Assembly (NCBI GenBank): GCA_022340665.1
Contig: JAJDNM010000046.1
Coordinates: 1 to 49,269 of the forward strand
DNA from: Acidobacteriota bacterium
GTDB taxonomy: Bacteria > Acidobacteriota > Thermoanaerobaculia > Thermoanaerobaculales > Sulfomarinibacteraceae
Length of the DNA: 49,269 bases
Direction of reading: 5' to 3'
Part shown: piece by piece, positions 2,055-47,202 of the stretch
How positions within the stretch are numbered: position 1 is the stretch's first letter
How the letters are laid out: every line of letters begins with the position of its first letter
The notes under the pieces: generated by a model
Database searches by the model: none
What the model saw: the letters and a program-made list of their open reading frames with translations, nothing else
What the model was told of the DNA's origin: nothing
Program-made: the position numbers and the translations under genes

Positions 2055-4457
2055 TTGCGAAGCAGTGCAACACGATGCATCACGGCATTAGTCGTGATAA
2101 TTCTGCCGATTATCGGCTGTTCGCGAAATGGTAACCCCGGGTTGAGGGTGGCCGGAAAAACCTCACTCGTCGTGATTTCGGTAGATACCCTGCGATCCGA
2201 TCATTTGCCTGCCTACGGCTATCGCGGTGTAGAAACTCCGGCGGTTGACACACTGCGCTCCGATGGGATCCTTTTCGAACGTGCCTACACCCACGTCCCT
2301 CTGACCCTGCCTGCCCACGTCTCGTTGCTGACCGGGACACTGCCGCCGACTCACGGGGTGCGGGATAATCTCGGCTACCCGCTGGATACAACCAACACCC
2401 CTCTCCTCCAAAGGACGCTGAAGGTGGCGGGCTATGCGACAGGCGCAGGCGTGTCAGCTTTCGTCCTCCGGCGGGCCACAGGGATCAGTGAAGGCTTCGA
2501 TTTCTACGACGACGGCATCGAGCTCATCCCGGATCCGAGCAAGCCGGGGATCCAGTCGGCCCAGCGCCCCGGAACCGAGACCCTCGAGGCGGTGCTGCCA
2601 TGGCTGCGATCGGTTGCCGACCGACCATTCTTCCTCTTTTTCCACATCTTCGAACCCCACACCCCTTATGACCCTCCTCCCAAGTTCGCGGTTCGCTATG
2701 AATCTCCCTACGACGGTGAGGTGGCGGCGGCAGATGCAGTGGTCGGCCAGTTGATCGATGAGCTGCGTGCACTCGGTGCGTACGACGAGACCTTGATCGT
2801 CTTTCTCTCCGATCACGGCGAAGGCCTCGGCGATCACGGCGAAGACGAGCACGGAGTGTTTCTCTATCGCTCGACGCTGCAAGTGCCGCTGATCCTCAAG
2901 ATGCCGGATTCGGAACGAGCCGGTGACACGATCAGCCACCCGGTGCAATTGATCGACCTGTATCCGACGCTGACCGGAATTCTCGGATTGCCGGACGATG
3001 CCCGGCTCGAGGGCGCTTCGCTGTTCTCCGAGGAGAGAGCTGGTCTTCCGCAACCTTCGATCTATGCCGAGACGCTCTACCCTCGCCTCCATTTCGGGTG
3101 GAGTGATCTCAAGGCACTCGTCGTCGGCAGCCACCATTTCATTGACGCGCCGCGGCCGGAGCTCTATGACCTCCTCTCGGATCCTGACGAAAGGCTGAAC
3201 CTCGTGCAATCGAAGCCCGAAATGGTGGCGGATCTCCGGGCAACGATGAGCGCTTATGACCGGGAGGTGGCAGCGCCCCAGTCGACCGACGCCCAGACTC
3301 AACGACGGCTCCAGGCGCTCGGGTATATCGGCGAAACGACGCTGATCACCGACAACGAAACGCTCCCAGACCCGAAAGACCGGATCACTGTACTCGCGGA
3401 AATTCGTCACGCGCACCGCCTCTTCGCTGATGGGAACCTCGTGTCGGCGGTGCCGGCGTTTCGTCGTATCGTCGACAGAGAGCCGGGAATCGAGGACGCG
3501 TGGGAATATCTCGCGCTTGCACAACTCGGTCAGGGCCTTGCAGAAGACGCGGCAGCGACCTATCGCGACGCTCTCGACAAGGTGCCGTACTCGAAGAGAC
3601 TGTCGTTGAGTGCGGCGGCACTTTTCTACCGCCTAGGTCGTGTCGACGAGGCGGCAGCTCTCGCCCGACATTCCCTGTCGTATGACCCCTCGGCCGCCCA
3701 CTCGCTGCTCGCCCAGATCGCGCTGTTGCACGGTGATCTCGATCAAGCCGAGAGCGAAGCACGCGCCGCCCTAGCGGTTCCCGGGGATCGGCGTCCAGAA
3801 TCACGACTCGTCATGGCCGACATTCTAATTGCACAGGGCGAGCCGCGAGAGGCTGCAGATTTCCTCTCACAAGCGTTGCACGAGGGGATCAAAAGTGACT
3901 CGCTGTGCTCGAAGCTCGCCATGGTCTATTTGAGGCTCGGTGAGCCTGACCGAGCGGAACAGGTCCTCAGAGGATTCGAGGATTCGAATGACCCGGGAAT
4001 ACTGCTGGCGATCGGCAAGGCGGCGATGTCGCGCCGGAACTGGAGCGAGGCGCGGCTGTGGGTGGAGCGCGCCCTCCTCGAGGCGCCGAACGACGCGGTG
4101 TTGAAGCTCAACCTCGGCATCATCGCCATGGCCCAGGGGCAGCTGCCCGAGGCAAAGACATGCCTTGAAGAGTCGGTTGCCGGCAGACCCGCCTCTTTTG
4201 ATGCCTGGAACGCGCTGGGCTCGGTCAACGCGCGCCTCGGCGATTACGATCAGGCGATTGCGGCCTGGGAGCGCGCACAGGAGCTCGATCCCGAGGTCCT
4301 CGATGTGCTGTACAACCTCGGCGTCGCCCACGCCCAAGCCGGTCGGCCCTTGCAGGCAAACAGTTTTCTCGACGACTACGTCGCCCGTGCACAGCCGGGA
4401 TCGCAGCGTGATCGCGCGATCGCCCTGGCGCAGCAGCTCCGCAGCCAAGCCCGATAG
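2055..4457 (+). CDS. Sulfatase-fold (alkaline phosphatase superfamily) lipoprotein with TPR tail, copy 1
   Basis: 800 residues. TTG start at 2055 is supported by GGAGGA at 2041-2046. Residues 1-22 form a lipoprotein signal ending in LPIIGC, so Cys22 is the likely lipidated residue. The sulfatase-fold domain spans about 36-430: metal-site Asp in VISVDTLRSDHL (D44), the nucleophile region VPLTLPAHVSLLTG, FEPHTPYDPP, and the second metal site SDHGEGLGDHGE (D253, H254). The position that is Cys or Ser in formylglycine sulfatases is Thr84, so classical sulfatase activity is doubtful; Thr is the nucleophile in phospho-transferring relatives such as LtaS. From about 450 onward there are TPR repeats (AWEYLALAQLGQGLAEDAAATYRDAL and others). 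It converges on copy 2 with 28 bp between stops. Substrate unknown. Confidence 0.85.
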   Translation: MRSSATRCITALVVIILPIIGCSRNGNPGLRVAGKTSLVVISVDTLRSDHLPAYGYRGVETPAVDTLRSDGILFERAYTHVPLTLPAHVSLLTGTLPPTHGVRDNLGYPLDTTNTPLLQRTLKVAGYATGAGVSAFVLRRATGISEGFDFYDDGIELIPDPSKPGIQSAQRPGTETLEAVLPWLRSVADRPFFLFFHIFEPHTPYDPPPKFAVRYESPYDGEVAAADAVVGQLIDELRALGAYDETLIVFLSDHGEGLGDHGEDEHGVFLYRSTLQVPLILKMPDSERAGDTISHPVQLIDLYPTLTGILGLPDDARLEGASLFSEERAGLPQPSIYAETLYPRLHFGWSDLKALVVGSHHFIDAPRPELYDLLSDPDERLNLVQSKPEMVADLRATMSAYDREVAAPQSTDAQTQRRLQALGYIGETTLITDNETLPDPKDRITVLAEIRHAHRLFADGNLVSAVPAFRRIVDREPGIEDAWEYLALAQLGQGLAEDAAATYRDALDKVPYSKRLSLSAAALFYRLGRVDEAAALARHSLSYDPSAAHSLLAQIALLHGDLDQAESEARAALAVPGDRRPESRLVMADILIAQGEPREAADFLSQALHEGIKSDSLCSKLAMVYLRLGEPDRAEQVLRGFEDSNDPGILLAIGKAAMSRRNWSEARLWVERALLEAPNDAVLKLNLGIIAMAQGQLPEAKTCLEESVAGRPASFDAWNALGSVNARLGDYDQAIAAWERAQELDPEVLDVLYNLGVAHAQAGRPLQANSFLDDYVARAQPGSQRDRAIALAQQLRSQAR

Positions 4458-10201: not shown

Positions 10202-11503
10202 TCATTCGGTTCGGCTCTTCTCGGGGTCGACGAAAAACCCGTACAGAGTGAGACCCGCGATAGAAAAGGCACCCATCAACATGACCCCACCGAAAAAGGC
10301 CCACGGCTGAGTGGCAACGCCGGCCTCATGGGGAATTCGGATGAAACGCTCGTACAGCCAGCCCGCCCACGGACCAGAATATATGTTGCCGATGAAGATG
10401 GCGAAGAAGGAGTAACCCAGGTACAACGCCACCTGGTCCTTTGGCGCGACCGTTCCGCAATACTCGAAGAACCTGGGCGAGCAGATCATCTCGCCGATTG
10501 ACCAGACGAGAATTCCGAGAGAGATGAAAGTCGCAGTCGGCGACATCCCCGGGAAGACCCAGGAAACGGTTGCAATCGAGGTGCCGACCAGCATCGTTCT
10601 CAGAGTCGGCCAGCGGCGCGTGAGATAGGCGATGAGGGCCTGGAATAGGACGATCAGCAATGCGTCGAGCGAGATCAGCACCTCGGGGTTGAGCCAGTGG
10701 CCCGCCACCTTTGTGAGCGGCACGATCGAGTCGATGGCGGCCTCGGCGGCGTAGAGATCGGTGAAAGTCTCCACGTACAGGGGCATGAAGCCGAACAGAA
10801 CGTTGATCATGCCCCAAAACCCGGAAAAGATCACCAGAAGCAGGACGAAGCGCCAGTTGGCGAGCACCCTGAGGATTTCGCGGACAATGTCGCCGAGGGT
10901 CTTCCCGGAGGCCCTCTCTTCAGCCGGAACCGGCTCCCGATAGGCCACAATCGCCTGCACCAACATCAGCGCACAGGCTGCTGCAGAGACCCAGAAGACG
11001 TAGCGGAACTCGGTACGGTTGCGAACCTGGGCTGCGACCACCGGGCCGATGAGACCGCCGGCGTTGATCATCATGTAGTAGAGGCCGAACCCGACTGGTC
11101 GGGTACTGCCCTCCTCGGTGGTCCTGGTGACGGTGCCAGAAATCGTGGGTTTGATGATCGAGCCGCCGATGGCGATGAGGCCGAGGGCGGCGCAGATGAT
11201 CGTGAAATCGGTGGTAGAGCCGAGGAGGAAATAACCCCCGGTAAGGGTCGCGAAAGCGACGGTGAGGGCGGGTTTGTACCCGAACCGATCGGCGAGAGCG
11301 CCGGCAAGCACGGGCAGGAAGTAGAGGGCGCCGGTGAAGAGGCCGTAGACCACACCGTAGGTGTCTGCCGGCACGCCGAGCCGATCGACGACATAGATGC
11401 CGAGCACCATCACCATGCCGTAGTAGGCGAGACGCTCGAAGAGCTCCATCACGACTGCGGAATAGAGTGTGCCCGGAAGCTGACGGAGGAATTTGAATTC
11501 CAT
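10202..11503 (-). CDS. MFS transporter, POT/PTR2 (proton-dependent peptide transporter) type
   Basis: 433 residues, almost all in hydrophobic segments. The N-terminal helix has ELFERLAYYG, the ExxER..YYG signature of proton-coupled oligopeptide transporters. GGSIIKPTISG and GLYYMMINAGGLIGP match the fifth-helix region of that family. At 433 residues it is shorter than many bacterial POT proteins (about 480-500), which have two extra helices, so it may be a 12-helix variant. It heads the minus-strand operon leading to the DUF2231 and two sulfatase-fold genes, hinting that uptake of small peptides or a similar substrate goes with the surface lipoproteins; this is inference. Its leader carries a G-tract motif (11519-11533). 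Confidence 0.8.
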   Translation of the reverse strand: MEFKFLRQLPGTLYSAVVMELFERLAYYGMVMVLGIYVVDRLGVPADTYGVVYGLFTGALYFLPVLAGALADRFGYKPALTVAFATLTGGYFLLGSTTDFTIICAALGLIAIGGSIIKPTISGTVTRTTEEGSTRPVGFGLYYMMINAGGLIGPVVAAQVRNRTEFRYVFWVSAAACALMLVQAIVAYREPVPAEERASGKTLGDIVREILRVLANWRFVLLLVIFSGFWGMINVLFGFMPLYVETFTDLYAAEAAIDSIVPLTKVAGHWLNPEVLISLDALLIVLFQALIAYLTRRWPTLRTMLVGTSIATVSWVFPGMSPTATFISLGILVWSIGEMICSPRFFEYCGTVAPKDQVALYLGYSFFAIFIGNIYSGPWAGWLYERFIRIPHEAGVATQPWAFFGGVMLMGAFSIAGLTLYGFFVDPEKSRTE

Positions 11504-11518
11504 GGGCGGAGATTCTAT

Positions 11519-11533
11519 CCCACCCGCCCACCC
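11519..11533 (-). other. G-quadruplex-pattern motif upstream of the POT-type transporter
   Basis: CCCACCCGCCCACCC on the plus strand, that is four G3 tracts with 1-nt loops on the minus strand. It ends 16 bp upstream of the transporter start codon and would be in the non-template (RNA-like) strand of its leader if transcription starts upstream. It is the outer edge of the repeat element that follows. Confidence 0.6.
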
Positions 11534-11536
11534 GCA

Positions 11537-11641
11537 CGATACTGGATACTAGATCCTGGATTCTTGATCCGCCGACAGCTCAGAGAGCGGGATCAAGGAA
11601 TTGTCGCATCGAGCATCCAGCATCCAGCATCCAGCATCCAG
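11537..11641. repeat. Heptamer repeat element, ATCNAGN type
   Basis: The left arm (11537-11570) read on the minus strand gives 7-bp units AATCCAG, GATCTAG, TATCCAG. The right arm (11607-11641) on the plus strand is CATCGAG followed by four CATCCAG. GGATCAAG occurs inverted at the inner ends of both arms. The array stops 1 bp before the A-run of the tolC-like terminator. No protein is encoded. Confidence 0.85.
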
Positions 11642-11642
11642 C

Positions 11643-11672
11643 AAAAACGCCCTCCCGGCAAGGGGAGGGCGT
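11643..11672 (-). terminator. Rho-independent terminator of the TolC-family gene
   Basis: Perfect 10-bp stem ACGCCCTCCC (11647-11656) / GGGAGGGCGT (11663-11672) with a 6-nt loop. On the minus strand it is followed by TTTTT (11643-11647), 26 bp downstream of the TolC-family stop codon. Confidence 0.9.
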
Positions 11673-11697
11673 CGTATCTGAATCGGCTCCGCTGGCG

Positions 11698-13407
11698 TCA
11701 GTTCGCTTCCATTTCAGACGGTGAGAGCGGCATCGGCACCTCTTCCTCCCCTTTGAAGTCGGTGAACTGAAGCCACTCGACATCCTCCCAGTAATCGTGC
11801 ACGGATTCCGACGCCTCGTCGTCGGTTATCACGACATTCTTTGCCTCGAGGAAGGTTCCGGTGGAGGCGAAATAGGTAGCCATCGCCTTGCGGTATCCGA
11901 CCCTCGCCTGGATCTCGGCAAACCGGGCAGAGGCTAACGCGTCCTGAATCTCTGATACCTGAAAGTTGGTCGAAAGGCCATTGGCGAACTTGGTCTGTTC
12001 GGCCTCGAGATTCCGGACCGCGAGGCGGCTCGATGCGACGGCGGCATCGATGGCGGCGGCTCCGTCCTCGAGCGCGCGTACCGCGAACCTGACCTGGCGG
12101 GTGATCTCCTGCTTGAGGGCGGCGAGCTGAGCGCCCGAGCGGTCACGTTGATAGCGTGCCGCCGCGAGCTGCTCCTTGGCCCGGTGATTACCCATCGGTA
12201 CCGAGAAATTCAGACCGAGGGTCCACCTCGGGAAATCGAAGTCGAAGACCTGGCTCGCGGCATCGCCCCAACCCTCGCGAATGGTGATCGGCTCTCCGGT
12301 GTCGGGATCCTCGACCGTCCCCGTGCCGCTGACGCCCCCCCAACCGTAGGATCCGGTCAGGTCGAGGCGCGCGAGGGCTCGGTTCCGCGCGACCTTGACG
12401 TTCGTGTTGAGGCGCTCCATCTCGAGCTCCTGCCGGATGATGGCTGGACGCTTCTGGAGGGCGATCTCGATCGACTCCTCGAGTTCGGGGCGGATCGGTT
12501 CGACGTTGTAGGAATCGGTGGTCTCGATCCGAACCTGCCACTCGTGTGGCAGGTCGAAGCCGAGCAGACCCTTGAGGTTGTCTTCGGCGTTTGAGGCCGC
12601 ATTCTCGGCGTAGATGAGCTCCTGCCGGCGGGTCGCGACCGTGGCCTCGGACTGGACCATGTCGATCGGAGCCGAAGTGCCGACCTCGACTCGTTGCCGA
12701 GTTTCCTCCAGGAGGCGTTCGGCGAGTTCGAGTGACTGCTCGGTGACCGCGATTGCCTGCCGGGTGGCCACCAGCTCCCAGTATGCGAGCTCGACGTCGG
12801 CCAGGAGTTGAATGATGTCGACCTCGAAAGCAACCGCGGTCTGGTCGCGAAGATTCTCCTCGATGATGATCTGGTAACGGGTGGCGGTGGTACCGAATCC
12901 GTTGAGCAGGGGCTGGGTCAACGAGAAATTGAGCCGAGCATCCCAGCGTGGATTGAGGAAGTAGAACTCCGAGTTGGTCTTGCCGCGATTGGACAACCAC
13001 GATGCCTCGAGCTCGGTGCCGCTGGGAAGGAGCTGATTGACGCCGATACCGAAACCCATGTTGTCGCTTACTGCGACGTTTGCACCCTCGAGAATGGTTG
13101 ACGTCGGCGCCTTGGTCGAATCGAATCCGAGGTCGGCCCACAAGGTCGGATCGAATATCCCGCCCGAACCGCGCACGTTGGCGTTGGCGATGGCCATGTC
13201 GTACCGCCCCACGTGGAGGTTCAGATTGCGAGCAAGGGCAAGCTGGTAGGCGCCTATGAGATCGAGCTTGAGGACGTCTCCCTCGGTCACCGGCAGGCTT
13301 TCGACCTGCGCCGGCAACGCGGAGACTTCGAGTTCGGCGGCGGTGACCAACCCGACGGATGCGGCAAGCAGTATGGCAGTGAGAAGAGCTGTTTTCCTGG
13401 TGTTCAC
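11698..13407 (-). CDS. TolC-family outer-membrane channel protein
   Basis: 569 residues from a GTG at 13407 with AGGAGG 8 bp upstream. Residues 1-23 are a signal peptide (MNTRKTALLTAILLAASVGLVTA). Two repeated outer-membrane-efflux halves follow, with long helices rich in Ala, Glu and Arg (AYWELVATRQAIAVTEQSLELAERLLEETRQRVEVGTSAPIDMVQSEA; then LAAARYQRDRSGAQLAALKQEITRQVRFAVRAL). LTQPLLNGFG and a strand of the type LNFSVPMGNHRAKEQ are characteristic of the family. It is longer than E. coli TolC (about 490) through insertions. No inner-membrane pump or adaptor gene is adjacent, so its partner is unknown; the ABC exporter pair at 21.9-25.5 kb is on the other strand. It has its own terminator. 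Confidence 0.88.
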   Translation of the reverse strand: MNTRKTALLTAILLAASVGLVTAAELEVSALPAQVESLPVTEGDVLKLDLIGAYQLALARNLNLHVGRYDMAIANANVRGSGGIFDPTLWADLGFDSTKAPTSTILEGANVAVSDNMGFGIGVNQLLPSGTELEASWLSNRGKTNSEFYFLNPRWDARLNFSLTQPLLNGFGTTATRYQIIIEENLRDQTAVAFEVDIIQLLADVELAYWELVATRQAIAVTEQSLELAERLLEETRQRVEVGTSAPIDMVQSEATVATRRQELIYAENAASNAEDNLKGLLGFDLPHEWQVRIETTDSYNVEPIRPELEESIEIALQKRPAIIRQELEMERLNTNVKVARNRALARLDLTGSYGWGGVSGTGTVEDPDTGEPITIREGWGDAASQVFDFDFPRWTLGLNFSVPMGNHRAKEQLAAARYQRDRSGAQLAALKQEITRQVRFAVRALEDGAAAIDAAVASSRLAVRNLEAEQTKFANGLSTNFQVSEIQDALASARFAEIQARVGYRKAMATYFASTGTFLEAKNVVITDDEASESVHDYWEDVEWLQFTDFKGEEEVPMPLSPSEMEAN

Positions 13408-16175: not shown

Positions 16176-16219
16176 CCGGCCATGGTAGCGCGGAGCATCC
16201 GGCCATTGGCCGGAGTGTA

Positions 16220-16311
16220 GAGTTTTGAATAATGGGTTTTGAGTTTTTCGAGGGTCGTCCGGAGGTCGCGGTAACTCAACACTCAAAACTCAGAACTCAA
16301 AACTCAAAACT
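16220..16311. repeat. Heptamer repeat element, AACTCAA type
   Basis: The right arm (16273-16311) is five and a half 7-bp units: AACTCAA, CACTCAA, AACTCAG, AACTCAA, AACTCAA, AACT. The left arm (16220-16251) on the minus strand carries AAACTCAAAAC and TCAAAACT, the same unit in reverse orientation but more decayed. The two arms are about 20 bp apart. The element lies just upstream of priA, between its GTG and the atl-like gene. Confidence 0.85.
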
Positions 16312-18182: not shown

Positions 18183-18290
18183 TATCGATTCTCAATTCTC
18201 GGTTTTCAATTTTGAATTCCCGGTCGTCCACCCCGAGAACGGCACGGGCGGCGGGGAACTGAGGATCGAGAATTCAGAATTGCGAATTGT
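18183..18290. repeat. Heptamer repeat element, GAATTNN type, running into mqnA
   Basis: The left arm (18183-18220), read on the minus strand, gives GAATTCA, AAATTGA, AAACCGA, GAATTGA, GAATCGA. The right arm (18256-18290) on the plus strand gives GAACTGA, GGATCGA, GAATTCA, GAATTGC, GAATTGT. Five units per arm, in opposite orientation, around a GC-rich centre. The right arm overlaps the last codons and stop of mqnA. Confidence 0.8.
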
Positions 18291-21022: not shown

Positions 21023-21066
21023 GAAGATTTCACCCACCTGGTACCTTCCCCCCTGTCGCGGTCGGG

Positions 21067-21101
21067 ATTCCGAATTCAGAATTCCTCATTCCGAATTCGG
21101 T
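21067..21101. repeat. Heptamer repeat array, ATTCNNN type
   Basis: Five exact-period 7-bp units: ATTCCGA, ATTCAGA, ATTCCTC, ATTCCGA, ATTCGGT, ending 15 bp before the hpt stop codon. It is followed by a G-rich run (21100-21115). A 17-bp stretch (TCCGAATTCAGAATTCC) is shared exactly with the array at 47168-47202. Confidence 0.8.
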
Positions 21102-21716: not shown

Positions 21717-21913
21717 CCACCCACCCATTTCGGATTTCGGATTTCGAATTTTCCGCCCACCCACCCCTCGACAATTCAACTCAACCATTCAGCGATTCGT
21801 TGAATCAAACATCCAACATCCAACATCGAGTATCCAGCATCCAGCATCCAGCATCCAGCATCGAGCATCCAGCATCGAGCATCCAGCATCCAGCATCTGT
21901 CTGGGCGGGTGGG
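21717..21913. repeat. Composite repeat element: ATTTCGG units, C tracts and a 13-unit ATCNAGN array
   Basis: From left: C tracts (21717-21726), four units ATTTCGG, ATTTCGG, ATTTCGA, ATTTTCC (21727-21754), C tracts CCC A CCC A CCCC (21756-21767), a short palindromic AATTCAA/TTGAATC part, then thirteen 7-bp units (21810-21900: two CATCCAA, then CATCGAG, TATCCAG, mainly CATCCAG) and GGGCGGGTGGG (21903-21913). It fills the divergent gap between hpt and the ABC exporter pair, so promoters of both must lie in or beside it. Confidence 0.85.
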
Positions 21914-21938: not shown

Positions 21939-23744
21939 GTGAAACGGAGCTTGGTGTTGAGCGAAGTTGTAACAGAGAATCCTGAAAAGACCGAAAGGCC
22001 GGTGATGCGGCTCCTGCGGGAGTATGCCTGGCCCTACAGGTGGAGCTACCTCGCGGGCGCCATTTTTCTGTGGATCACCAATTACCTGGCGGTCAGTATT
22101 CCAGGACAGATCGGCCACGCGATCGATGCCCTTCGCGCGGAGCAACCTATGGCCCGCTACATCGTGGCTATCGCGCTCATGGGCGTGGCGGTGATCGTGG
22201 TCCGGAGCCTGTCGAGAGTTCTCATCTTCAATCCCGGGCGCCACATCGAGTACAACCTGCGGAAAGATCTTTTCGCCCATCTCTTGAGGCTGCAGCCGTC
22301 ATTTTACGCGACCCAGAAGAGGGGGGATATCGTCAGCCGGGCCGCCAACGACATCAGCTGGGTTCGTACGCTGGTCGGGTTCGGTGGGTTGCAGGTGATC
22401 AACGTGACCCTCGCTGTAGCCCTCACCGGGTGGAAGATGATGTCGCTGTCGCCGAGGCTCACATTTGTGGTTCTGGTGCCGATCGCTCTCGGCGCTGGTC
22501 TCGTTCAGTGGGGCATCCGACGCCTCTTCCTGCTTGCGCGTAGGAGCCAGGAACAGCTCGGCGAGATCTCCGAACACGTTCTCGGCAGCTTGCAGGGCAT
22601 GGCGGCGATCCAGGGTTTCGTGGCAGAGGAGTCGTTCATCGAGCGTTTCGAGACGAGAAACATCGCGTGGCTCAGCACCGGAATGCGCCTTGCCCTTATT
22701 CGCTCGATCGCTCTACCACTGCTCGTCCTCTCGGGCGGCGTGGCCATGTTCGCCCTGATCGCAGTGGGTGGAAGGATGGCTCTCTCCGGCACCCTGACCG
22801 TCGGAGAGCTCGCTGCCTTCACCGCGCTGTTGACCGTCTTTCTGCCTCCCCTTCGATCGATGGGGTGGATGATGTCGGTGATCCAGCGGGGGAGGGCCGC
22901 TCTCGAACGGATTTTCGAGCTCATGGATGCACCAATCGAGCGACCAGAGGGCTCAACCGGTGTGATTCTGGACGCAGGACGCGGCCCGAGGATCGATATT
23001 CGAGATCTCCATTTTGCCTACCCGGACGAACCGGGACGCGAGGTGCTCAGCGGCCTGACCGCGACCATCCCGGCTGGTGGCGTAGTCGGACTCTTCGGGC
23101 GGACCGGAAGCGGCAAGAGCACACTGTTGCATCTTCTCATCCGGCTCTACAATCCGCCGGCAGATTCAGTCTACGTCGATGACGTCGATATTCTGACGCT
23201 CGATCTCGAGAGCTGGCGCCAGCGGCTGACGGTCGTACCTCAGCGACCGTTCCTCTTTTCCGACGCGATTTCCGCCAACGTCTCTCTCGAAGAGAAGCCG
23301 AATGTATCGCGGATTCGGGACGCGGTTGACATGGCGGCGCTGGGTGCCGATCTCGAGGCCCTCCCGGACGGCCTTCAAACAGTGGTCGGTGAGCGCGGTA
23401 TCATGCTTTCCGGTGGTCAGCGACAGCGGGTCGCGCTTGCCCGAGGCCTCTACCGGAGTGGTGATGTGTTGATCCTGGACGACGTGCTGTCGGCAGTCGA
23501 TCACCAGACGGAATCGCAGCTGGTGGATACGGTCGCTCACCTCGCGCGCCGACCGGAAGCACCAACGGTCCTGATCTCGAGCCACCGTCTCTCGGCCCTG
23601 CGACATTGCGACACGGTGTTGGTGCTCGACAGCGGCAGGTTGGTCGATGAAGGCCCGCACAGCGAGCTGATACGAAGGCCGGGGGTTTACCGGGATACCT
23701 GGCTCGTGCAGAGCCAGAGTGCGGCGGACGAGGTGGCGTCGTGA
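21939..23744 (+). CDS. ABC exporter half-transporter, non-canonical Walker B subunit (MdlA-like)
   Basis: 601 residues from a GTG at 21939. Six membrane segments (about 30-320) are followed by a nucleotide-binding domain: Walker A GLFGRTGSGKST at about 385, signature LSGGQRQRVALARGL at about 490, Walker B VLILDDVLSAVD at about 510, and the H-loop SSHRLSAL. The catalytic Glu after Walker B is Asp here, as in the degenerate half of heterodimeric type IV exporters such as TM287/288 or MdlA. The next gene starts inside its stop (GTGA overlap) and supplies the other half. Likely exports lipids or drugs; the cargo cannot be told. Upstream is a repeat element. Confidence 0.9.
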   Translation: MKRSLVLSEVVTENPEKTERPVMRLLREYAWPYRWSYLAGAIFLWITNYLAVSIPGQIGHAIDALRAEQPMARYIVAIALMGVAVIVVRSLSRVLIFNPGRHIEYNLRKDLFAHLLRLQPSFYATQKRGDIVSRAANDISWVRTLVGFGGLQVINVTLAVALTGWKMMSLSPRLTFVVLVPIALGAGLVQWGIRRLFLLARRSQEQLGEISEHVLGSLQGMAAIQGFVAEESFIERFETRNIAWLSTGMRLALIRSIALPLLVLSGGVAMFALIAVGGRMALSGTLTVGELAAFTALLTVFLPPLRSMGWMMSVIQRGRAALERIFELMDAPIERPEGSTGVILDAGRGPRIDIRDLHFAYPDEPGREVLSGLTATIPAGGVVGLFGRTGSGKSTLLHLLIRLYNPPADSVYVDDVDILTLDLESWRQRLTVVPQRPFLFSDAISANVSLEEKPNVSRIRDAVDMAALGADLEALPDGLQTVVGERGIMLSGGQRQRVALARGLYRSGDVLILDDVLSAVDHQTESQLVDTVAHLARRPEAPTVLISSHRLSALRHCDTVLVLDSGRLVDEGPHSELIRRPGVYRDTWLVQSQSAADEVAS

Positions 23745-25495
23745 GGGATCGCTCGATGCTGCGCCACCTGTGGCCGTTTCTCAGGCCCGATTCATGGGCC
23801 TTCGCTCTCGCTCTGATTCTGACGCCGGTCACCGCGGGCCTCAGCCTGGTTCAGCCTTGGATCCTGAAGAAGGTCATCGACGACCACATCGTGGCGGGGG
23901 TGAGCGAGGGATTGATGACCCTCGCGCTGCTCTATCTCGGTGCGGTTGGCGTCGCGTATGTGCTCGAGGGTGGATACGTGATGTCACTCGCGTGGGGTGG
24001 CCAGCGCACCATCGTGCGGCTGCGCTCGGGTGTCTATCGGAAGCTTCTGAGTCTGCGTCAGAGCTATCTCGACCGGCAGCCCGCAGGTCGCCTGTTGACC
24101 CGGGCGACCTCGGATATCGACGCCCTCGGAGAAGCGTTCTCTTCCGGCCTTATCAACATCGTTCTCGACCTCCTGATGATCACCGGCACCCTGATTGCAA
24201 TGTTCCTGCTCGATTGGAAGCTGACCCTCGTCTTGATGCTGTTGGCGCCGCCGATTCTCGCCGTACTCGAGATCATTCGTCGCCGCCTCAGGGTTCTCTT
24301 TCTGGAGGTGCGAGAGGCGTTGGCGTCGGTCAATGCCTTTCTCGCCGAAAGGGTGGACGGCGTCGAGGTTGTCCAGCTCTTTGGCAACGAGGACCATTCG
24401 GAGCGCCTGTTCGACCTCAGGAACGATCGATTCCGTCGCGCTACGACACGCTCGAATGTTTACGACTCGTTCATGTACGCGCTGGTCGACGGCACTGCAG
24501 CCATCTGCGTGGCAGTGATGCTGTGGTACGGGTCTGGGTTGGCCACTCAAATGGGATTTCCCCTGCCGCTGAGCGAGCCGGTCAGCGCGGGCGTGCTGGT
24601 TGCCTTCATCGAGTACCTGGACCGCCTCTTCCGGCCGCTCCGGGAGCTCTCGTCTCGGGTCGCGGTGCTGCAACGGGGCGCAGCCGCACTCGAGAAGGTC
24701 CTCGGTCTTCTCGACGTCACGGAAACCGTGTCCGAAGACGGAGTCAGCCACCCGGAGGTCGCGGGCGAGATCAAGATGCGTGAGGTGTTCTTCAGATACA
24801 GGCCAGACACCGAGGACGTCCTGAGCGGAATCGACCTGGACGTGAATCCCGGTGAAGTGGTAGCGGTGGTCGGTTCGACCGGTTCTGGCAAAACCACGCT
24901 GACCCGAATCCTCGACACTTCGTACACGGGCTATAGGGGGAGCATCACGCTTGACGGGAAGGAGCTGTCGGGCCTGCGATCGAAAGACGTGCGTCGCCGG
25001 ATCGCGGGTGTGCGGCAGGATCCGCAGCTGTTTTCGGAGACGGTGCGCTTCAACATCGATCTGGGGAACGAAAACATCGATGCAGCCGAGACCGAGGCTG
25101 CGGCGGAGCTGGTCCATGCCGATCGGGTGATCGATCGCGTCGGGTGGGACCATGTGCTGCGTGAACGAGGTGCCGATCTGTCGGTGGGGGAAGGGCAACT
25201 GCTGACCTTCGCGCGCGCGATGGCGCACGATCTTTCGGTGGTTGTGCTCGACGAAGCCACTGCGTCCGTTGACTCGATCACGGAGCAGCTGATTCAGGAT
25301 GCGATTGCCAAGATCTTCGAGCGCAAGACGGTGCTCGTGATCGCACACCGGCTTTCGACGGTGGAGCGTGCCGACCGGATCGTGATGATGGACCATGGGC
25401 GTATCGTCGAGCAGGGCACCCACCACGAGCTGCTCGCTGCCGGCGGCGCCTACGCCAAGCTCGTCCGTGCCGGCGAAGACCTCCTGGTCGCGTGA
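23741..25495 (+). CDS. ABC exporter half-transporter, catalytic subunit (MdlB-like)
   Basis: 584 residues from the GTG at 23741, overlapping the previous stop by 4 bp; an ATG at 23756 is an alternative. Six membrane segments, then Walker A VVGSTGSGKTTL at about 376, signature region LSVGEGQLLTFARAM at about 479, Walker B VVVLDEATASVDS at about 501 and H-loop IAHRLSTVERAD. Walker B has the catalytic Glu, but the signature is LSVGE rather than LSGGQ. Combined with the Asp in the partner, the two deviations fall in the same composite ATP site, as expected for a heterodimeric exporter with one degenerate site. Its stop directly abuts the C-tract edge of the next repeat element. Confidence 0.92.
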   Translation: MRDRSMLRHLWPFLRPDSWAFALALILTPVTAGLSLVQPWILKKVIDDHIVAGVSEGLMTLALLYLGAVGVAYVLEGGYVMSLAWGGQRTIVRLRSGVYRKLLSLRQSYLDRQPAGRLLTRATSDIDALGEAFSSGLINIVLDLLMITGTLIAMFLLDWKLTLVLMLLAPPILAVLEIIRRRLRVLFLEVREALASVNAFLAERVDGVEVVQLFGNEDHSERLFDLRNDRFRRATTRSNVYDSFMYALVDGTAAICVAVMLWYGSGLATQMGFPLPLSEPVSAGVLVAFIEYLDRLFRPLRELSSRVAVLQRGAAALEKVLGLLDVTETVSEDGVSHPEVAGEIKMREVFFRYRPDTEDVLSGIDLDVNPGEVVAVVGSTGSGKTTLTRILDTSYTGYRGSITLDGKELSGLRSKDVRRRIAGVRQDPQLFSETVRFNIDLGNENIDAAETEAAAELVHADRVIDRVGWDHVLRERGADLSVGEGQLLTFARAMAHDLSVVVLDEATASVDSITEQLIQDAIAKIFERKTVLVIAHRLSTVERADRIVMMDHGRIVEQGTHHELLAAGGAYAKLVRAGEDLLVA

Positions 25496-25668
25496 CCCGC
25501 CCACCCGCCCGATACTCGATGCTGGATGTTGGATCCTGGTCTCACCCAACCAGCCCTTGGCACTCATGAATCAGGATTCAACCGTTTGTAGAATCCAAAA
25601 ATCCAACATCAAGCATCAAGCATCAAGCATCGAGTATCGAGTATCCGAGGTATGTGTGGGTGGGCGGG
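25496..25668. repeat. Heptamer foldback element with complementary G/C-tract ends
   Basis: The clearest copy. Outer ends are CCCGCCCACCC (25496-25506, extended by GCCC to 25510) and the exact complement GGGTGGGCGGG (25658-25668). Inside, the left arm (25511-25539) read on the minus strand gives GATCCAA, CATCCAG, CATCGAG, TATC; the right arm (25592-25649) gives AATCCAA, CATCAAG three times, CATCGAG, TATCGAG, TATCCGA. The loop of about 50 bp is unique. The left end, four C3 tracts with 1-nt loops, fits a G-quadruplex on the minus strand. Confidence 0.88.
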
Positions 25669-25815
25669 AAATCCCAAATCCGCATTACGTGGGTGGGTGA
25701 GTTACCATGGTGCCCCGCTTCTTGCGAGGTGACAGATATGGCGTCTCAAATGAGTCGAGATCCTGCGCGGGCCCCGGACCGGGTGGACGTGCGTGCAGTG
25801 AGGAAGGAGGATGCG
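25669..25815. other. Leader region of the PhoD-like gene
   Basis: About 150 bp between the repeat element and the phosphatase start. It contains another GTGGGTGGG (25689-25697). The frame of the phosphatase is open through it, but no upstream start has a ribosome site. Confidence 0.4.
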
Positions 25816-27945
25816 ATGCGTGGTTTTCTTCGTTCGGCGGGTTTGATCGTTGTCCTGTGTGTCGTGGCTGGCGTGGCCGCCGCAAATGACTATTTTCCGC
25901 AGTCTGTGGCTTCGGGTGATCCGACGCCGACGAGTGTCGTGCTGTGGACCCGAGCGATCGACGGTGATGGCGGGATTCCTTCCGGTGTCATTCTCAGTGT
26001 CGCCACCGATCAGGCCTTTACGAATGTGGTGATGAAGCGGTCGATTGAGATTGACAAAGAATACGACGGCGTCGTCAAGGTCAAGGTCGACGGGCTGATG
26101 CCGTACACCGACTACTACTACCAGTTCGCGGTCGACGAAAACCTATCGCAAATCGGCCGCACGCGGACTGCGCCGACCCCCGACATGGACGTCGATGTCA
26201 GATTTGCGGTGGTTTATTGCCAGGATTACATCGGTCGCTACTACAACGCCTATCTCAAATTGTTGCTCGATCACGACGAAGATATCGATTTCATCGTCCA
26301 CCTTGGCGATTACGTCTACGAGACGACCGGAGACCCTCAGTTCCAGGATCCGGAGAGTGAACGAAAGATGGTCTTCGAGGACACCGAGGGTGCGATTCAG
26401 CTCGGCACGGAAGAGAACCCCAACTATGCCGCCGCCAGCCTGGCCAATTACCGAACCCTCTATCGCACCTACCGTTCGGACGAAGTGCTGCAGGAAGTCC
26501 ACGAACGGTGGCCAATGCTCGTGGTCTGGGACGATCACGAGTATGCCAACGACGCTTGGGGTGCCACGGCGACCTACTACAACGGCCGTCGAGACGAGTA
26601 CGACGTCGAGCGCAAGCAGAACTCGGAACGAGCTTTCTACGAGTGGGTGCCGATCGATGCCGGCCTCAACCAGGAGGGCGAGCTCGAGATCACCGCTGCC
26701 GATCTCTATCCGAACGCGAAGATCTATCGCGATCTGATCTACGGCTCGAACCTCCACCTTGTGCTGACCGATCTGCGGTCATTCCGGCCTGACCATTTGA
26801 TCCCGGAAGACGCGTTCCCCGGCGAGATCGCGGTCGACGAGGAAACCCTTGCCGCCATGGTGGGTGAGGCGTGGCCGGCGGTCAGGGAGAGTTTCGACCC
26901 TTACGTCGATATGGACCTTCTCGGCGGTTATTTGCCGATCCTGCGGCAGACCACGAGCCTGATCGCCGCCAATCTCTACATGATGGAAAACCCCGAACTC
27001 GATTTCTTCACCGCGGTTGATCTGGGCGAGGCTGCGATGTCGGGGAATGTGAGCGCCACCTTCATCAATCTCCTGTTTACAGAGGCTGGGCTGCAAGCGC
27101 CGTTCTCTGCGGAAGTCCTGGCCATGCTACCGCGGGGGATCTCGTTCCTGGTGATGGGCAAGACCGCGATTTACTCTTCAGGCGGATCGCGGACGCAGGT
27201 CATCAAGGATACCTTCGACCTCTACGCCGCCGCCCGCTACCTCGAGACAGAGGGCGCGGCGCAGGAGGTGTATGGAGCGCAGCAGAACGCCTGGCTCCAG
27301 GGGACGTTGCTCGCCAGTCCGACGACCTGGAGGGTTCTGGGCCACTCGTTCATGATGACGCCGATGGTGATCGATTTCACCAACCCGGCGATCGCCGATA
27401 TGCTGCCCGTTGAATTCCCGGATTTCCTCCGCACAAAACTGGTGATCAACGCCGAGGACTTCAACGGCCTGCCGCAAAAGACCATGGAGGTGCTGGGACT
27501 CCTCGGTCTGGTCCCGAACACGGTAGTGATTTCGGGTGACATCCACTCGACATTCGTGACCGACCACAAGAACGGAATTTACGAGATCACACCGCCGGCC
27601 ATCTCCTCGGCGACGAACGCCGAGATCGTGATCAGGGTCGTCGCTTCCGACCCGATACTCGGGCAGATACCGGGCATCGAGGAGATTCTCCAAAACTACG
27701 CCCTCCTCCTCCAGGTATCGGCGATGAGCCCGGCTGTGTCGCAGTCCGATATCCTGTACGCCAATACCTTTTCCCACGGTTACGGCATCTTCGACGTCGC
27801 CGACAGCGTGATGAAGATCCTCATCCAGCAGATGCCTTCGGACGAGGTTGGTAACAGCTACTACGACGATCCGGAGGCGTTGGAAGCCCTGTTTACTCCG
27901 CTCAGATTCACGATTCGGGATGGGGTGCTGACTCCTGCGCCCTGA
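25816..27945 (+). CDS. PhoD-like metallophosphatase (alkaline phosphatase D family), secreted
   Basis: 709 residues from the ATG at 25816, with AAGGAGG 5 bp upstream and a clean signal peptide MRGFLRSAGLIVVLCVVAGVAAA. An N-terminal fibronectin-like domain (FPQSVASGDPTPTSVVLWTRA ... YYYQFAVDENLSQIGRTRTAP) precedes the metallophosphatase core: FIVHLGDYVYE, MLVVWDDHEYANDAWG, RAFYEWVPID, and VVISGDIHSTFVTDHKNG. These fit the metal-binding Asp/His motifs of PhoD. It would release phosphate from phosphodiesters outside the cytoplasm. It is longer than Bacillus PhoD (583), with an insertion after the DHEYAND motif region (about 300-450). Follows a repeat element and ends at a strong terminator. Confidence 0.9.
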   Translation: MRGFLRSAGLIVVLCVVAGVAAANDYFPQSVASGDPTPTSVVLWTRAIDGDGGIPSGVILSVATDQAFTNVVMKRSIEIDKEYDGVVKVKVDGLMPYTDYYYQFAVDENLSQIGRTRTAPTPDMDVDVRFAVVYCQDYIGRYYNAYLKLLLDHDEDIDFIVHLGDYVYETTGDPQFQDPESERKMVFEDTEGAIQLGTEENPNYAAASLANYRTLYRTYRSDEVLQEVHERWPMLVVWDDHEYANDAWGATATYYNGRRDEYDVERKQNSERAFYEWVPIDAGLNQEGELEITAADLYPNAKIYRDLIYGSNLHLVLTDLRSFRPDHLIPEDAFPGEIAVDEETLAAMVGEAWPAVRESFDPYVDMDLLGGYLPILRQTTSLIAANLYMMENPELDFFTAVDLGEAAMSGNVSATFINLLFTEAGLQAPFSAEVLAMLPRGISFLVMGKTAIYSSGGSRTQVIKDTFDLYAAARYLETEGAAQEVYGAQQNAWLQGTLLASPTTWRVLGHSFMMTPMVIDFTNPAIADMLPVEFPDFLRTKLVINAEDFNGLPQKTMEVLGLLGLVPNTVVISGDIHSTFVTDHKNGIYEITPPAISSATNAEIVIRVVASDPILGQIPGIEEILQNYALLLQVSAMSPAVSQSDILYANTFSHGYGIFDVADSVMKILIQQMPSDEVGNSYYDDPEALEALFTPLRFTIRDGVLTPAP

Positions 27946-31592: not shown

Positions 31593-31655
31593 GCCATTTT
31601 AGCGTTTGTGAGCACCTAGCGTCGAAAAACTGGGAAGGTAATCATCAATTCGGCA

Positions 31656-31821
31656 GATTCTGGATGTTGGATACTGGATGCTGGATCCGCCCGCCCACCC
31701 CTGGACATTCACGGGAGAGGATTGAAGTTTTTGTTGCATCCAGCATCCAGCATCCAGCATCTATCTAGCATCTAGCATCCAGCATCTATCTAGCATCTAG
31801 CATCTAGCATCGAGGTTCGAG
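31656..31821. repeat. Heptamer repeat element, ATCNAGN type, with 11-bp units
   Basis: The left arm (31656-31687) on the minus strand reads GATCCAG, CATCCAG, TATCCAA, CATCCAG. It is followed by CCCGCCCACCCC (31689-31700). The right array (31737-31821) is three CATCCAG, CATCTATCTAG (11 bp), CATCTAG, CATCCAG, CATCTATCTAG again, CATCTAG twice, CATCGAG, GTTCGAG. The 11-bp units look like a 4-bp slip (ATCT doubled) within a heptamer, then copied with its neighbours. The array ends 2 bp before the hutU stop codon. Confidence 0.85.
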
Positions 31822-31823
31822 GA

Positions 31824-38676: not shown

Positions 38677-40671
38677 CTACTGTCGATGGCGTTCCGTTTC
38701 CGCCTGACGTTCGGCCTCCTCGGCGCGCTTTCGAGCGCGGTCCGACAGTTCCCGCAATCGCTCGGCGTCGAGGCGATTCGCCTCGAGCGCCCTCCTGCGG
38801 GCGTCGGCTTCGAGAGCCTCAGCGCGCTCGCGGAGCCGCTCCCGTTCGACATCGTTCATGCGCTCGATCTCTGCGGCCCTCGATGCGAACTCTCTCTGTC
38901 GCTCGGCCTGCTCACGAGCCAGCTCCCGGGCAACCCTCGCCTGTTCACGCGCCTCGGCCTCTGTATGCCGCGACAACTCTCGAGCTTCGGCGCGGAACTT
39001 TTCACGGTCGGCATCTGTCATACGCTCGAGTTGAGCGGCCTTCAACGCAAGCTCTCTCTGTCGCTCGGCGGCCTCACGAGCTTGTTCCCGAGCGATCTGC
39101 GCCCGCTCACGCGCAAGGGCTTCTGCCCGCCTCGACATCTCTCGAGCCTCGTCACGGAGCTTTTCCCGCTCGGCATCCGTCAGACGTTGTTGTTCGGAGG
39201 CTTCTCGCGCCAGCTCCCGAGCCCGCTCGGCCGTCTCTCGTGAGTCTGCCCTGCGAGCCAGTGCCGCCTCATGAGCTCGTACTCGAGCTTCGCTTCTCGC
39301 GCGCTCGGCCTCGGGCGAGCTGCTTTCCGTCGATTGGCCGGGTGAAGCCGCCTCTTTCGACGGCGGTTCAGGTGCGGCGGGTTGGGACGGCGGAACGGGT
39401 TCCACACCGGTGGCAGGGACGGACACGGGGGAGGGAGCTTCGGCGGCAACAGGCGCCGACACCGGTGCTGGAGCGATTCCGGTGGACGGGTGCGGCGGAG
39501 CCGGCTCCGCTGGAGCCGAAACAGGCTCCGGTACGGGGGCGGCTGCGATCGGCGGCGAAGGCGCGGTCGGCGCAGGCGGTGCCTCTTCCGCCGGCGCCTT
39601 GTCAGCCGATGACCAGGTCTTGGTTGGATTCGTCGCGGACCGATCGATCGCGCTCCCTGCGTGCACGGGCGACGGCGCTATCGCGGGCATGAGGATCGCC
39701 GAACAGACAACCGCCGCGATGACGAGGGAGAGGGCCCATAGCGAATGGCCGCGATGCCCCAGATTCCCGGAAATGAGGTGCTGAACCCGGCGGTCGAGGC
39801 GCGGACCGGACGCGAAGGCCGTCACCGGGAGGCCGGGTGAGATCCCCCAGTGGGCGACGACTACCAGACACCTGGCAAGACCCAGGCGGTCACCGGTACA
39901 CGCAACGGCCCTCTCGTCGGTGAGGTGCTCGGCGATTTCTTCCAGGCGGCGCCGGACGAGCCGGTTGAGCGGTTGCAGAAAAAAAAGGGCTTCTCCGAGG
40001 CGGTAGAGCAGCTGCCACGCCGGGTCACGGCGCGCCAGGTGGGCCAGCTCATGGGCGAAGAGGCTCTTTTTGTGCTCGATGGCGAGATCGTCGACCCGTT
40101 CAGGGCAACACACCTCTGGCCTCTGGACACCGGTGGCGAAGGGTACCGCGATCGCGGGCGAGGTGCTCAGGCGGACCTTGCGGCGCATGCCCATAGCGAC
40201 GGCCAATCGGTTGAGAAGTTGATCCCCGGAGCGGAGAGTCCTCGTCTTCAGCAGGCGTCGGAGATCGAGCGCCGACCGGCCGAGAGTCAGCATCGCCAAA
40301 AGCGAGCCAATGGCCCAGAGTGAAACGAAAGCGACTGGCCAGATTGAGTCGCGTCCAATCCGGGTGAACCGGCTGGATGACGCCGGGTTAGCGACCAGAG
40401 AAGTGTTGACTGCGGTCTGATCGATCGTGGTGGAAGGGCATGCAGCTGAGAGACCTTCAATGGCAACGATTCCGCCGACGGGCTCGAAACCGAGTCCGGC
40501 CTGCGCTGTTGCGGTCAGCAGACCGCCGATCAGGGCGACTCGCAAGAGAGTCTCCTGCAACGGCATCAGTCGTTCACCAAGAGCGCGAGAGAAGAGCCAA
40601 GCAGCGCAGAGGAGAAGCGTACTGTGAATCAGGTAGGTGAGGAGCCAAGAGGCGACTGTCGCTGTGTTCAT
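38677..40671 (-). CDS. M56 (BlaR1/MecR1-type) membrane metallopeptidase with long coiled-coil tail
   Basis: 664 residues. Four hydrophobic segments in the first 335 residues enclose the M56 zinc site FAHELAHLARRDPAW (H207, E208, H211), with a second Glu in EIAEHLTDERAVAC. After the last membrane helix (about 312-332) comes a Pro/Ala-rich linker (about 355-450), then 200 residues of Glu/Arg/Ala-rich coiled coil with about three imperfect repeats (LTDAEREKLRDEAREMSRR, MTDADREKFRAEARELSRH, MNDVERERLRERAEALEAD). There is no penicillin-binding sensor domain as in BlaR1, so it senses something else. Its ATG overlaps the stop of the BlaI-like gene by 4 bp, giving the usual sensor-repressor pair. Signal unknown. 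Confidence 0.85.
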   Translation of the reverse strand: MNTATVASWLLTYLIHSTLLLCAAWLFSRALGERLMPLQETLLRVALIGGLLTATAQAGLGFEPVGGIVAIEGLSAACPSTTIDQTAVNTSLVANPASSSRFTRIGRDSIWPVAFVSLWAIGSLLAMLTLGRSALDLRRLLKTRTLRSGDQLLNRLAVAMGMRRKVRLSTSPAIAVPFATGVQRPEVCCPERVDDLAIEHKKSLFAHELAHLARRDPAWQLLYRLGEALFFLQPLNRLVRRRLEEIAEHLTDERAVACTGDRLGLARCLVVVAHWGISPGLPVTAFASGPRLDRRVQHLISGNLGHRGHSLWALSLVIAAVVCSAILMPAIAPSPVHAGSAIDRSATNPTKTWSSADKAPAEEAPPAPTAPSPPIAAAPVPEPVSAPAEPAPPHPSTGIAPAPVSAPVAAEAPSPVSVPATGVEPVPPSQPAAPEPPSKEAASPGQSTESSSPEAERARSEARVRAHEAALARRADSRETAERARELAREASEQQRLTDAEREKLRDEAREMSRRAEALARERAQIAREQAREAAERQRELALKAAQLERMTDADREKFRAEARELSRHTEAEAREQARVARELAREQAERQREFASRAAEIERMNDVERERLRERAEALEADARRRALEANRLDAERLRELSDRARKRAEEAERQAETERHRQ

Positions 40672-42044: not shown

Positions 42045-42080
42045 GAAGATATTGTGCCGCCATCAAAGGAGATTCGGAAG

Positions 42081-42180
42081 TGTTGAGTTTTGAGTTATCA
42101 GTTTTGAGTTGCCGCCACCCTCCCCGATCCCGGGCGGGTTGGGGGAACTCAAAACTCAAAACTAAGAACTCAAAACTGAG
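42081..42180. repeat. Heptamer foldback element, AACTCAA type
   Basis: The left arm (42083-42112) on the minus strand reads AACTCAA, AACTGAT, AACTCAA, AACTCAA. The right arm (42146-42180) on the plus strand reads AACTCAA, AACTCAA, AACTAAG, AACTCAA, AACTGAG. The loop has CACCCTCCCC and GGGCGGGTTGGGGG, which can also pair in part. It lies between queC and nagZ, ending 8 bp before the nagZ stop. Confidence 0.88.
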
Positions 42181-47034: not shown

Positions 47035-47167
47035 TGAGCCTCCCCTCGAGGCCAGTGTATCGCCTCCCAGGAATCCACGACGTCGGCGAGGATGGCCGTT
47101 TCGAGAAATCCTGACAAGGTGGGATACCTCTCTGTAATGTCTCGTCGCCGACCAACTGTGGGCCGGA

Positions 47168-47202
47168 ACTCCGAATTCAGAATTCCGAATTCCGAATTCT
47201 GC
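47168..47202. repeat. Heptamer repeat array, ATTCNNN type, forming the end of mtaB
   Basis: Five 7-bp units on the plus strand: ACTCCGA, ATTCAGA, ATTCCGA, ATTCCGA, ATTCTGC. On the minus strand these encode the last residues of mtaB (RIRNSEF) and its TGA stop. A 17-bp stretch is identical to the array at 21067-21101. No opposite arm is seen nearby. Confidence 0.82.

Follow-up and report, generated by a model that had tools for sequence, protein, structure and literature searches.

An intergenic 173-bp element of an Acidobacteriota genome, probably a gene-less member of a dispersed family of heptad hairpins linked to IVP/S23 genes

We analysed a stretch of 49,269 nt, contig JAJDNM010000046.1 of Acidobacteriota bacterium GCA_022340665.1 (hereafter the window; the genome, G000, is called the own genome), in which a 173-bp element begins at position 25496, the base after the stop codon (TGA, 25493-25495) of an ABC exporter gene. 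We found that this element belongs to a family of hairpins that is dispersed through the own genome, shares a core between complementary arms of tandem heptads, and occupies sites whose counterparts in sister species can be heptad-free; across phyla, such heptads are linked to genes of the PF05635 (IVP/S23) family. Probably, the 173-bp element is a form of this family without an open reading frame (ORF), comparable to a miniature inverted-repeat transposable element (MITE), and the full form carries a PF05635 gene in its loop. The original prediction for this DNA, which had described inverted ATCNAGN arms and an insertion directly 3' of the exporter's stop codon, was accurate in both respects, the arms lying at 25511-25534 and 25601-25645.

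A dispersed family with a shared core

Family copies were identified with R1, a sequence-only model built from 12 dispersed copies of the own genome, with those in the window excluded. Searched against the window, R1 matched the 173-bp element at 25511-25598 (35.9 bits, E 2.3e-10) and detected three further copies. It matched the own genome 139 times, some of the matches being heptad-only fragments, and four congeners 20, 10, 8 and 35 times; outside the genus, there were 0-2 matches per genome. A DNA search with the window showed the related element at 21752-21897 to have over 30 matches in other parts of the own genome, many of them reaching past the heptads. We estimate that the own genome holds roughly a hundred scattered copies of this small hairpin-forming element.

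The copies follow a common plan. Across 22 of them, we found a 5' C-tract, about four left heptads ending in GATACTCGATCC, a second C-tract (GCCCGCCCACCCC), a core of about 50 nt (TTGACAATTCAGCGAGACGATTTATCGATTCGTTGMATC) and a complementary right array, (ATCCAGC)n, occasionally followed by a 3' G-tract. In 10 of 17 copies, the arms stand exactly 51 nt apart. All family parts are present in the 173-bp element, with an arm spacing of 66 nt against the modal 51, and its loop, previously described as unique, is really a diverged form of the core found in the other copies. The element and its surroundings, where G001, G002 and G004 denote sister species (see below), read as follows:

25496 to 25510, plus strand: 5' C-tract CCCGCCCACCCGCCC with four C3 tracts (direct reading); a 5' C-tract is common among other copies
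25511 to 25534, plus strand: left heptad arm GATACTCGATGCTGGATGTTGGAT
25535 to 25600, plus strand: diverged family core, running from the region of the second C-tract (...CAGCCCTTGGCA...) through GTTTGTAGAATCC (R1 match)
25601 to 25645, plus strand: right heptad array ATCCAAC(ATCAAGC)3(ATCGAGT)2ATC, which pairs with the left arm
25658 to 25668, plus strand: 3' G-tract GGGTGGGCGGG, present in G001 without ATC arms
25669 to 25698, plus strand: adjacent one-armed AAATCC heptad unit, AAATCCCAAATCC ... GTGGGTGGG; related units lie beside G-tracts in G001, G002 and G004
23741 to 25495, plus strand: ABC exporter half-transporter gene (ORF list and Pfam ABC_membrane/ABC_tran)
25783 to 27945, plus strand: PhoD-like phosphatase gene, 3' of the element

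The three further copies in the window are:

31652 to 31822, plus strand: best R1 match in the window (75.6 bits, E 9e-23); the G004 site lacks heptads
11522 to 11643, plus strand: R1 match of 45.9 bits, E 2e-13
21745 to 21911, plus strand: more than 30 dispersed genome matches; the G001 site lacks heptads

In many copies, the core contains a conserved TTGACA and, about 16 nt further on, TATCGA (for example, window 31697-31740); judged by its letters, this pair resembles a sigma-70 promoter, from which the right array could be transcribed.

Heptads dominate the short tandem repeats of the own genome. Three ATCNAGN units followed by ATC occur 362 times (overlapping occurrences counted) and never in a reversed control. 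In a 375-kb sample of the own genome, we found 38 period-7 arrays, 37 of them intergenic, and at most 3 arrays for any other period below 11; arrays of period 14 and 21 are multiples that reflect the same period-7 arrays. Triple C or G tracts in this sample lay within 60 bp of period-7 arrays in 24 of 48 cases, although the arrays and their margins cover 2.7% of it. A C-tract was followed by a G-tract within 300 bp six times and the opposite order occurred zero times, with 0-1 in shuffles.

We confirmed by direct reading that the two ends, CCCGCCCACCC at 25496-25506 and GGGTGGGCGGG at 25658-25668, are exact reverse complements, and that the left end presents the predicted G-quadruplex pattern, as a pattern of letters, since CCCGCCCACCC extended by the next GCCC gives CCCGCCCACCCGCCC, which holds four C3 tracts. 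These ends are not general borders of the family, because most copies lack the 3' G-tract (a strict 5' C-tract is present in 8 of 22 copies, a 3' G-tract in 3 of 22) and because G001 keeps the G-tract without the arms. For the latter reason, the G-tract is probably at least as much a part of the neighbouring AAATCC unit as of the 173-bp element. Thus, the proposal of a defined unit holds for a discrete, dispersed element with a conserved core, but not for the G/C ends as its limits. An exact search of the own genome for the paired ends at gaps of 120-150 gave 0 matches and is uninformative, the element's own gap of 151 lying outside that range.

The 173-bp element sits between protein genes, outside any rRNA gene. 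Its predicted DNA fold has an energy of -43.5 kcal/mol, compared with a mean of -22.4 for dinucleotide shuffles (z -6.4); for the RNA fold, z is -6.5, and 0 of 200 shuffles were equally stable.

Orthologous sites in sister species

We compared three of the window's sites with their counterparts in the sister species, the congeners G001, G002, G003 and G004. At the site of the 173-bp element, G001 has no ATC arms and keeps GGGTGGGTGGGCGG then AAATTCGAAATCCG, and G003 has zero heptads within 150 bp after the stop codon. The same site in G002 holds another gene and an ATTCCTA array, and in G004 different repeats come after an ABC-exporter tail, with an ATCCGGT array upstream of PhoD. The 21727 site is heptad-free in G001, carries one arm of the ATCCGAA type in G003, and in G004 is occupied by a hairpin of 6-base repeats (TATCGC / GCGATA, L212 ~3440-3770). 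The 31656 site is heptad-free in G004. Because sister sites are heptad-free or hold other heptads or 6-mers, turnover is high.

The original prediction had proposed comparing empty and filled sites; heptad-free orthologous sites do exist, in diverged flanks. We saw no clear target-site duplication at the sister sites, where flanks that are only ~70-80% identical are too diverged to judge one. Together with the dispersed homologues, the heptad-free sites indicate that the element was largely rightly read as mobile rather than as random simple repeats; it is the complementary G/C ends as borders that failed.

IVP genes between complementary heptad arms

One copy in the own genome contains a gene. 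On contig 1, at 11145-11922, ATCNAGN arms enclose a PF05635 gene (11448-11774; 96.3 bits against a cut-off of 33.8), and the left (5') end of this copy matches R1 positions 5-57 (E 8e-8). PF05635 is the family of the 23S rRNA intervening-sequence protein (IVP, or S23), a small four-helix protein with the Avd fold. The predicted structure of its product (pLDDT 94) resembles 2GSC (XCC0516 of Xanthomonas campestris; TM 0.84), and the fold also matches 2RLD, of the S23 family, and Avd, 4DWL (TM 0.75). The 173-bp element encodes no IVP; being shorter than the PF05635 domain of ~106 positions would require, it is an ORF-less relative of such a copy.

This arrangement is found well beyond the genus. 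Most full-length PF05635 genes of relatives are enclosed by a pair of inverted heptad arrays, each locus with its own heptad. We scanned GTDB genomes for PF05635 and examined 80 loci, which span more than 15 phyla. Of these loci, 35 had arrays of period 7 or 14 upstream and 34 had them downstream, compared with 12 of 138 control segments (Fisher p 3e-9 and 9e-9), and the inverted arrays were mostly 7-mers. At 47 of 73 loci, the complementarity between the two flanks exceeded the 99th percentile of mismatched cross-locus pairs; among the distal flanks, 0 of 60 did so (Mann-Whitney p 6e-32). Plasmid loci of Nostoc, Trichormus, Pseudanabaena and Calothrix have complementary heptad arms, and those of Gemmatirosa have such arms made of 8-mers. 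Among 143 distinct IVP ORFs, scored for arrays within 260 bp, the period was 7 in 87, 8 in 13, 6 in 6 and 9 in 3. On the IVP tree, repeat period shows only moderate clustering, with 16 changes where shuffled labels gave a mean of 20.4 and 2 of 300 shuffles were as low.

We found that the pairing of IVP-bearing and ORF-less copies recurs. The arm heptad of one betaproteobacterial IVP locus occurs 34 times in its own genome, and that of one acidobacterial locus 222 times; each occurs 0 times in seven other genomes. In both hosts, most of the scattered stretches consist of a short inverted pair or a single array; they contain no IVP motif, and several lie directly 3' of apparent stop codons. The combination of an IVP-bearing copy with ORF-less ones thus recurs independently.

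Several further observations concern the IVP loci. L182 (G038 contig 68) has two adjoining IVP genes with 9-base instead of 7-base arms. At L075, the IVP ORF (minus strand) reads into the heptad array, and its C-terminal tail consists of SSIQHPA-like 7-residue repeats. On a Pseudanabaena galeata plasmid (L165, 1237-1955), long AAAGCTA / AAAGCCA heptad arrays accompany an IVP gene situated between cas6 and cas4. Given these neighbours, and a CRISPR-mining paper whose figure legend names a 23S rRNA IVP (PMC10910872), IVP heptad arrays might be misread as CRISPR repeats. A purine/pyrimidine rule for the heptads, YYNRR, fits those of the own genome by eye and was dropped, as it fails at other IVP loci. 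A search of phages for IVP gave no match.

The window also contains other repeats. Further heptad families (AACTCAA, GAATTCC) lie at 42079-42177, 18190-18289, 16216-16311, 47158-47199 and 21060-21098; two-armed elements of these types, such as that at 42079-42177, have the reverse layout, with the heptad arms outside and the C-tract and G-tract inside. At 38829-39152, a 162-bp repeat occurs twice, head to tail, with 73% identity between the two; this corresponds to a 54-residue protein repeat inside the coding region 38677-40671 (minus strand). In the sister species, a palindromic dispersed repeat, CCCTTGACATTGTTTGC...GCAAACAATGTCAAAA, has two copies in L213 (G004 contig 93), and another, GGCACGCC..ATGACGTTGAGGACAACGTCAT..GATGCCAGGCACCTC, is present in both L213 and L224 (G001 contig 51). 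From its appearance, the latter is like a classical repetitive extragenic palindrome (REP) and may be the partner of the Y1 transposases.

Mobility, alternatives and known systems

We propose that the family moves as a single-stranded copy, either RNA or lagging-strand DNA, which would fold as a heptad hairpin. The arms of this hairpin would be bound by a ring of IVP protein, which would be needed for movement, and the folded copy would insert at intergenic sites that tolerate it, often just 3' of stop codons if these are indeed preferred. Some enzyme would perform the joining step; reverse transcriptase is absent from the own genome, and the copies showed no association with Y1 transposase genes. 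After insertion, the right array would lengthen or shorten through slippage. More tentatively, the family may represent a phylum-spanning class of heptad-armed mobile hairpin DNA that is assisted by IVP/S23 and has no transposase or reverse transcriptase of its own, a wider claim to which we give somewhat less than even chances. The heptad arms around IVP genes across phyla suggest that such selfish DNA is widespread and largely undescribed.

Several observations weigh against an IVP-assisted mobile family. Neither a target-site duplication nor an excision intermediate was seen at the sites compared. Only a single IVP gene with ATCNAGN arms was found in the own genome, and the contig 1 copy that bears it may be inactive; for the AACTCAA, GAATTCC and AAATTCG families, no IVP partner was found in the own draft genome. 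Arrays went undetected at 34 of the 143 distinct IVP ORFs. Among family copies, the arms of one element pair no better than the arms of different elements, so that, with no element-by-element covariation, support for the hairpin comes from complementarity at the level of the family and from fold energy. Finally, we know of no activity for IVP, and of no recognised transposase or nuclease site in its fold.

An unlikely alternative is a REPIN-like element that owes its movement to a REP-associated tyrosine (Y1) transposase, with the IVP linkage being incidental. REPINs are likewise dispersed intergenic inverted-repeat hairpins with a division of labour between non-autonomous elements and a transposase (PMC3116915), and the own genome has five Y1_Tnp genes. 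However, none of eight Y1_Tnp loci in the own genome and its congeners is embedded in a family copy, the sole ATC-type array being ~1 kb off. REPs, moreover, are not heptad arrays, and the gene inside the arms across phyla is IVP rather than a Y1 transposase.

It is also improbable that a reverse transcriptase drives the family as a retroelement with IVP as an Avd-like accessory protein. The similarity between PF05635 and Avd, seen here in the shared fold, has been noted, and Avd is essential for retrohoming of diversity-generating retroelements (PMC10053308). Yet the own genome, the richest in copies and 96.9% complete, has no match to RVT_1, a result with which a past or plasmid-borne reverse transcriptase would still be compatible, and RVT_1 is present in just 6 of 20 relatives.

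We regard as quite improbable that nothing is mobile and that heptads arise and expand in place by slippage and template switching, with quasipalindrome correction yielding the inverted arms. The right arrays are near-perfect and their number of heptads varies between copies, which is consistent with slippage; heptamers are reported to be over-represented among the simple repeats of many bacteria (PMC4692102), and orthologous sites in sister species are occupied by different heptads. Nevertheless, slippage cannot yield a non-repeat core and an exact 51-nt spacing common to copies at unrelated loci, and inverted heptad pairs surround IVP genes in many phyla.

The chance that the element is a host regulatory device (a transcription terminator, an mRNA 3'-end stabiliser or a G-quadruplex switch) is just as small: it has a strong hairpin and a left end with four C-tracts, and elements in tandem gaps lie closer to the stop (median 7.5 bp) than to the next start (58.5 bp; Wilcoxon p 0.012), a proximity that constraint on the start side could equally cause, but divergent gaps are occupied (7 of 35) about as often as tandem (18 of 86) and convergent ones (8 of 28), conservation at orthologous sister sites is absent, and an Rfam search gave no match. 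A secondary effect of the element on its host may nonetheless exist.

The dispersed, IVP-linked hairpin family remains our preferred explanation. The over-representation of intergenic heptamers in cyanobacteria, xanthomonads and others has been noted for years with no agreement on its cause, and PF05635 structures have been solved since 2006 while a function is lacking; the linkage with heptads joins these two puzzles and makes both testable. If our explanation is true, then heptamer repeats would serve as arms in selfish hairpin elements that have IVP as their partner protein, and rRNA intervening sequences would gain a parent class. The wider, phylum-spanning class, if real, would account at once for the intergenic heptamers of many bacteria and for how rRNA intervening sequences arose. 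The linkage also calls for caution, as heptad arrays can pass for regulatory simple repeats or CRISPR-like repeats.

Among known systems, MITEs resemble the family in being dispersed, short and ORF-less, with inverted arms and a full-length ORF-bearing relative; unlike them, the family has no transposase or demonstrated target-site duplication, and its arms vary in length. Diversity-generating retroelements share the Avd fold with IVP but depart from the family in that RVT_1 is missing from the own genome. Heptameric repeats are known from Xanthomonas (GGGAATC) and Nostoc (GGGGA(C/T)T) (PMC4692102) and from Beggiatoaceae (TAACTGA; PMC4679880), and these are likewise abundant, intergenic 7-mers, some inverted and some G-quadruplex-forming; both papers tie them to G-quadruplexes or regulation, without a link to IVP. 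IVP genes are present in both Xanthomonas (2GSC, X. campestris) and Nostoc, and the Nostoc plasmid IVPs have heptad arms. Among the open-access papers that we searched, none relates dispersed heptads to IVP genes.

The closest functional analogue of the heptad elements is the REPIN/RAYT system (PMC3116915), which likewise comprises miniature non-autonomous intergenic hairpins made of inverted pairs, with a proposed single-stranded DNA intermediate and reliance on a gene located elsewhere in the genome. It differs in that the family's arms are tandem heptads that vary between genomes and the linked gene encodes the four-helix IVP protein. The intervening sequence in the Coxiella burnetii 23S rRNA forms a hairpin that holds an S23p ORF along with variable GACAGAT heptamers; it has been called a selfish element, and its heptamers are regarded as a local feature (PMC4990558). 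Whereas that sequence lies inside rRNA, the family described here has many copies in intergenic regions of protein genes, and the 173-bp element has no ORF. The Coxiella intervening sequence fits in as one member of the class that landed in rRNA.
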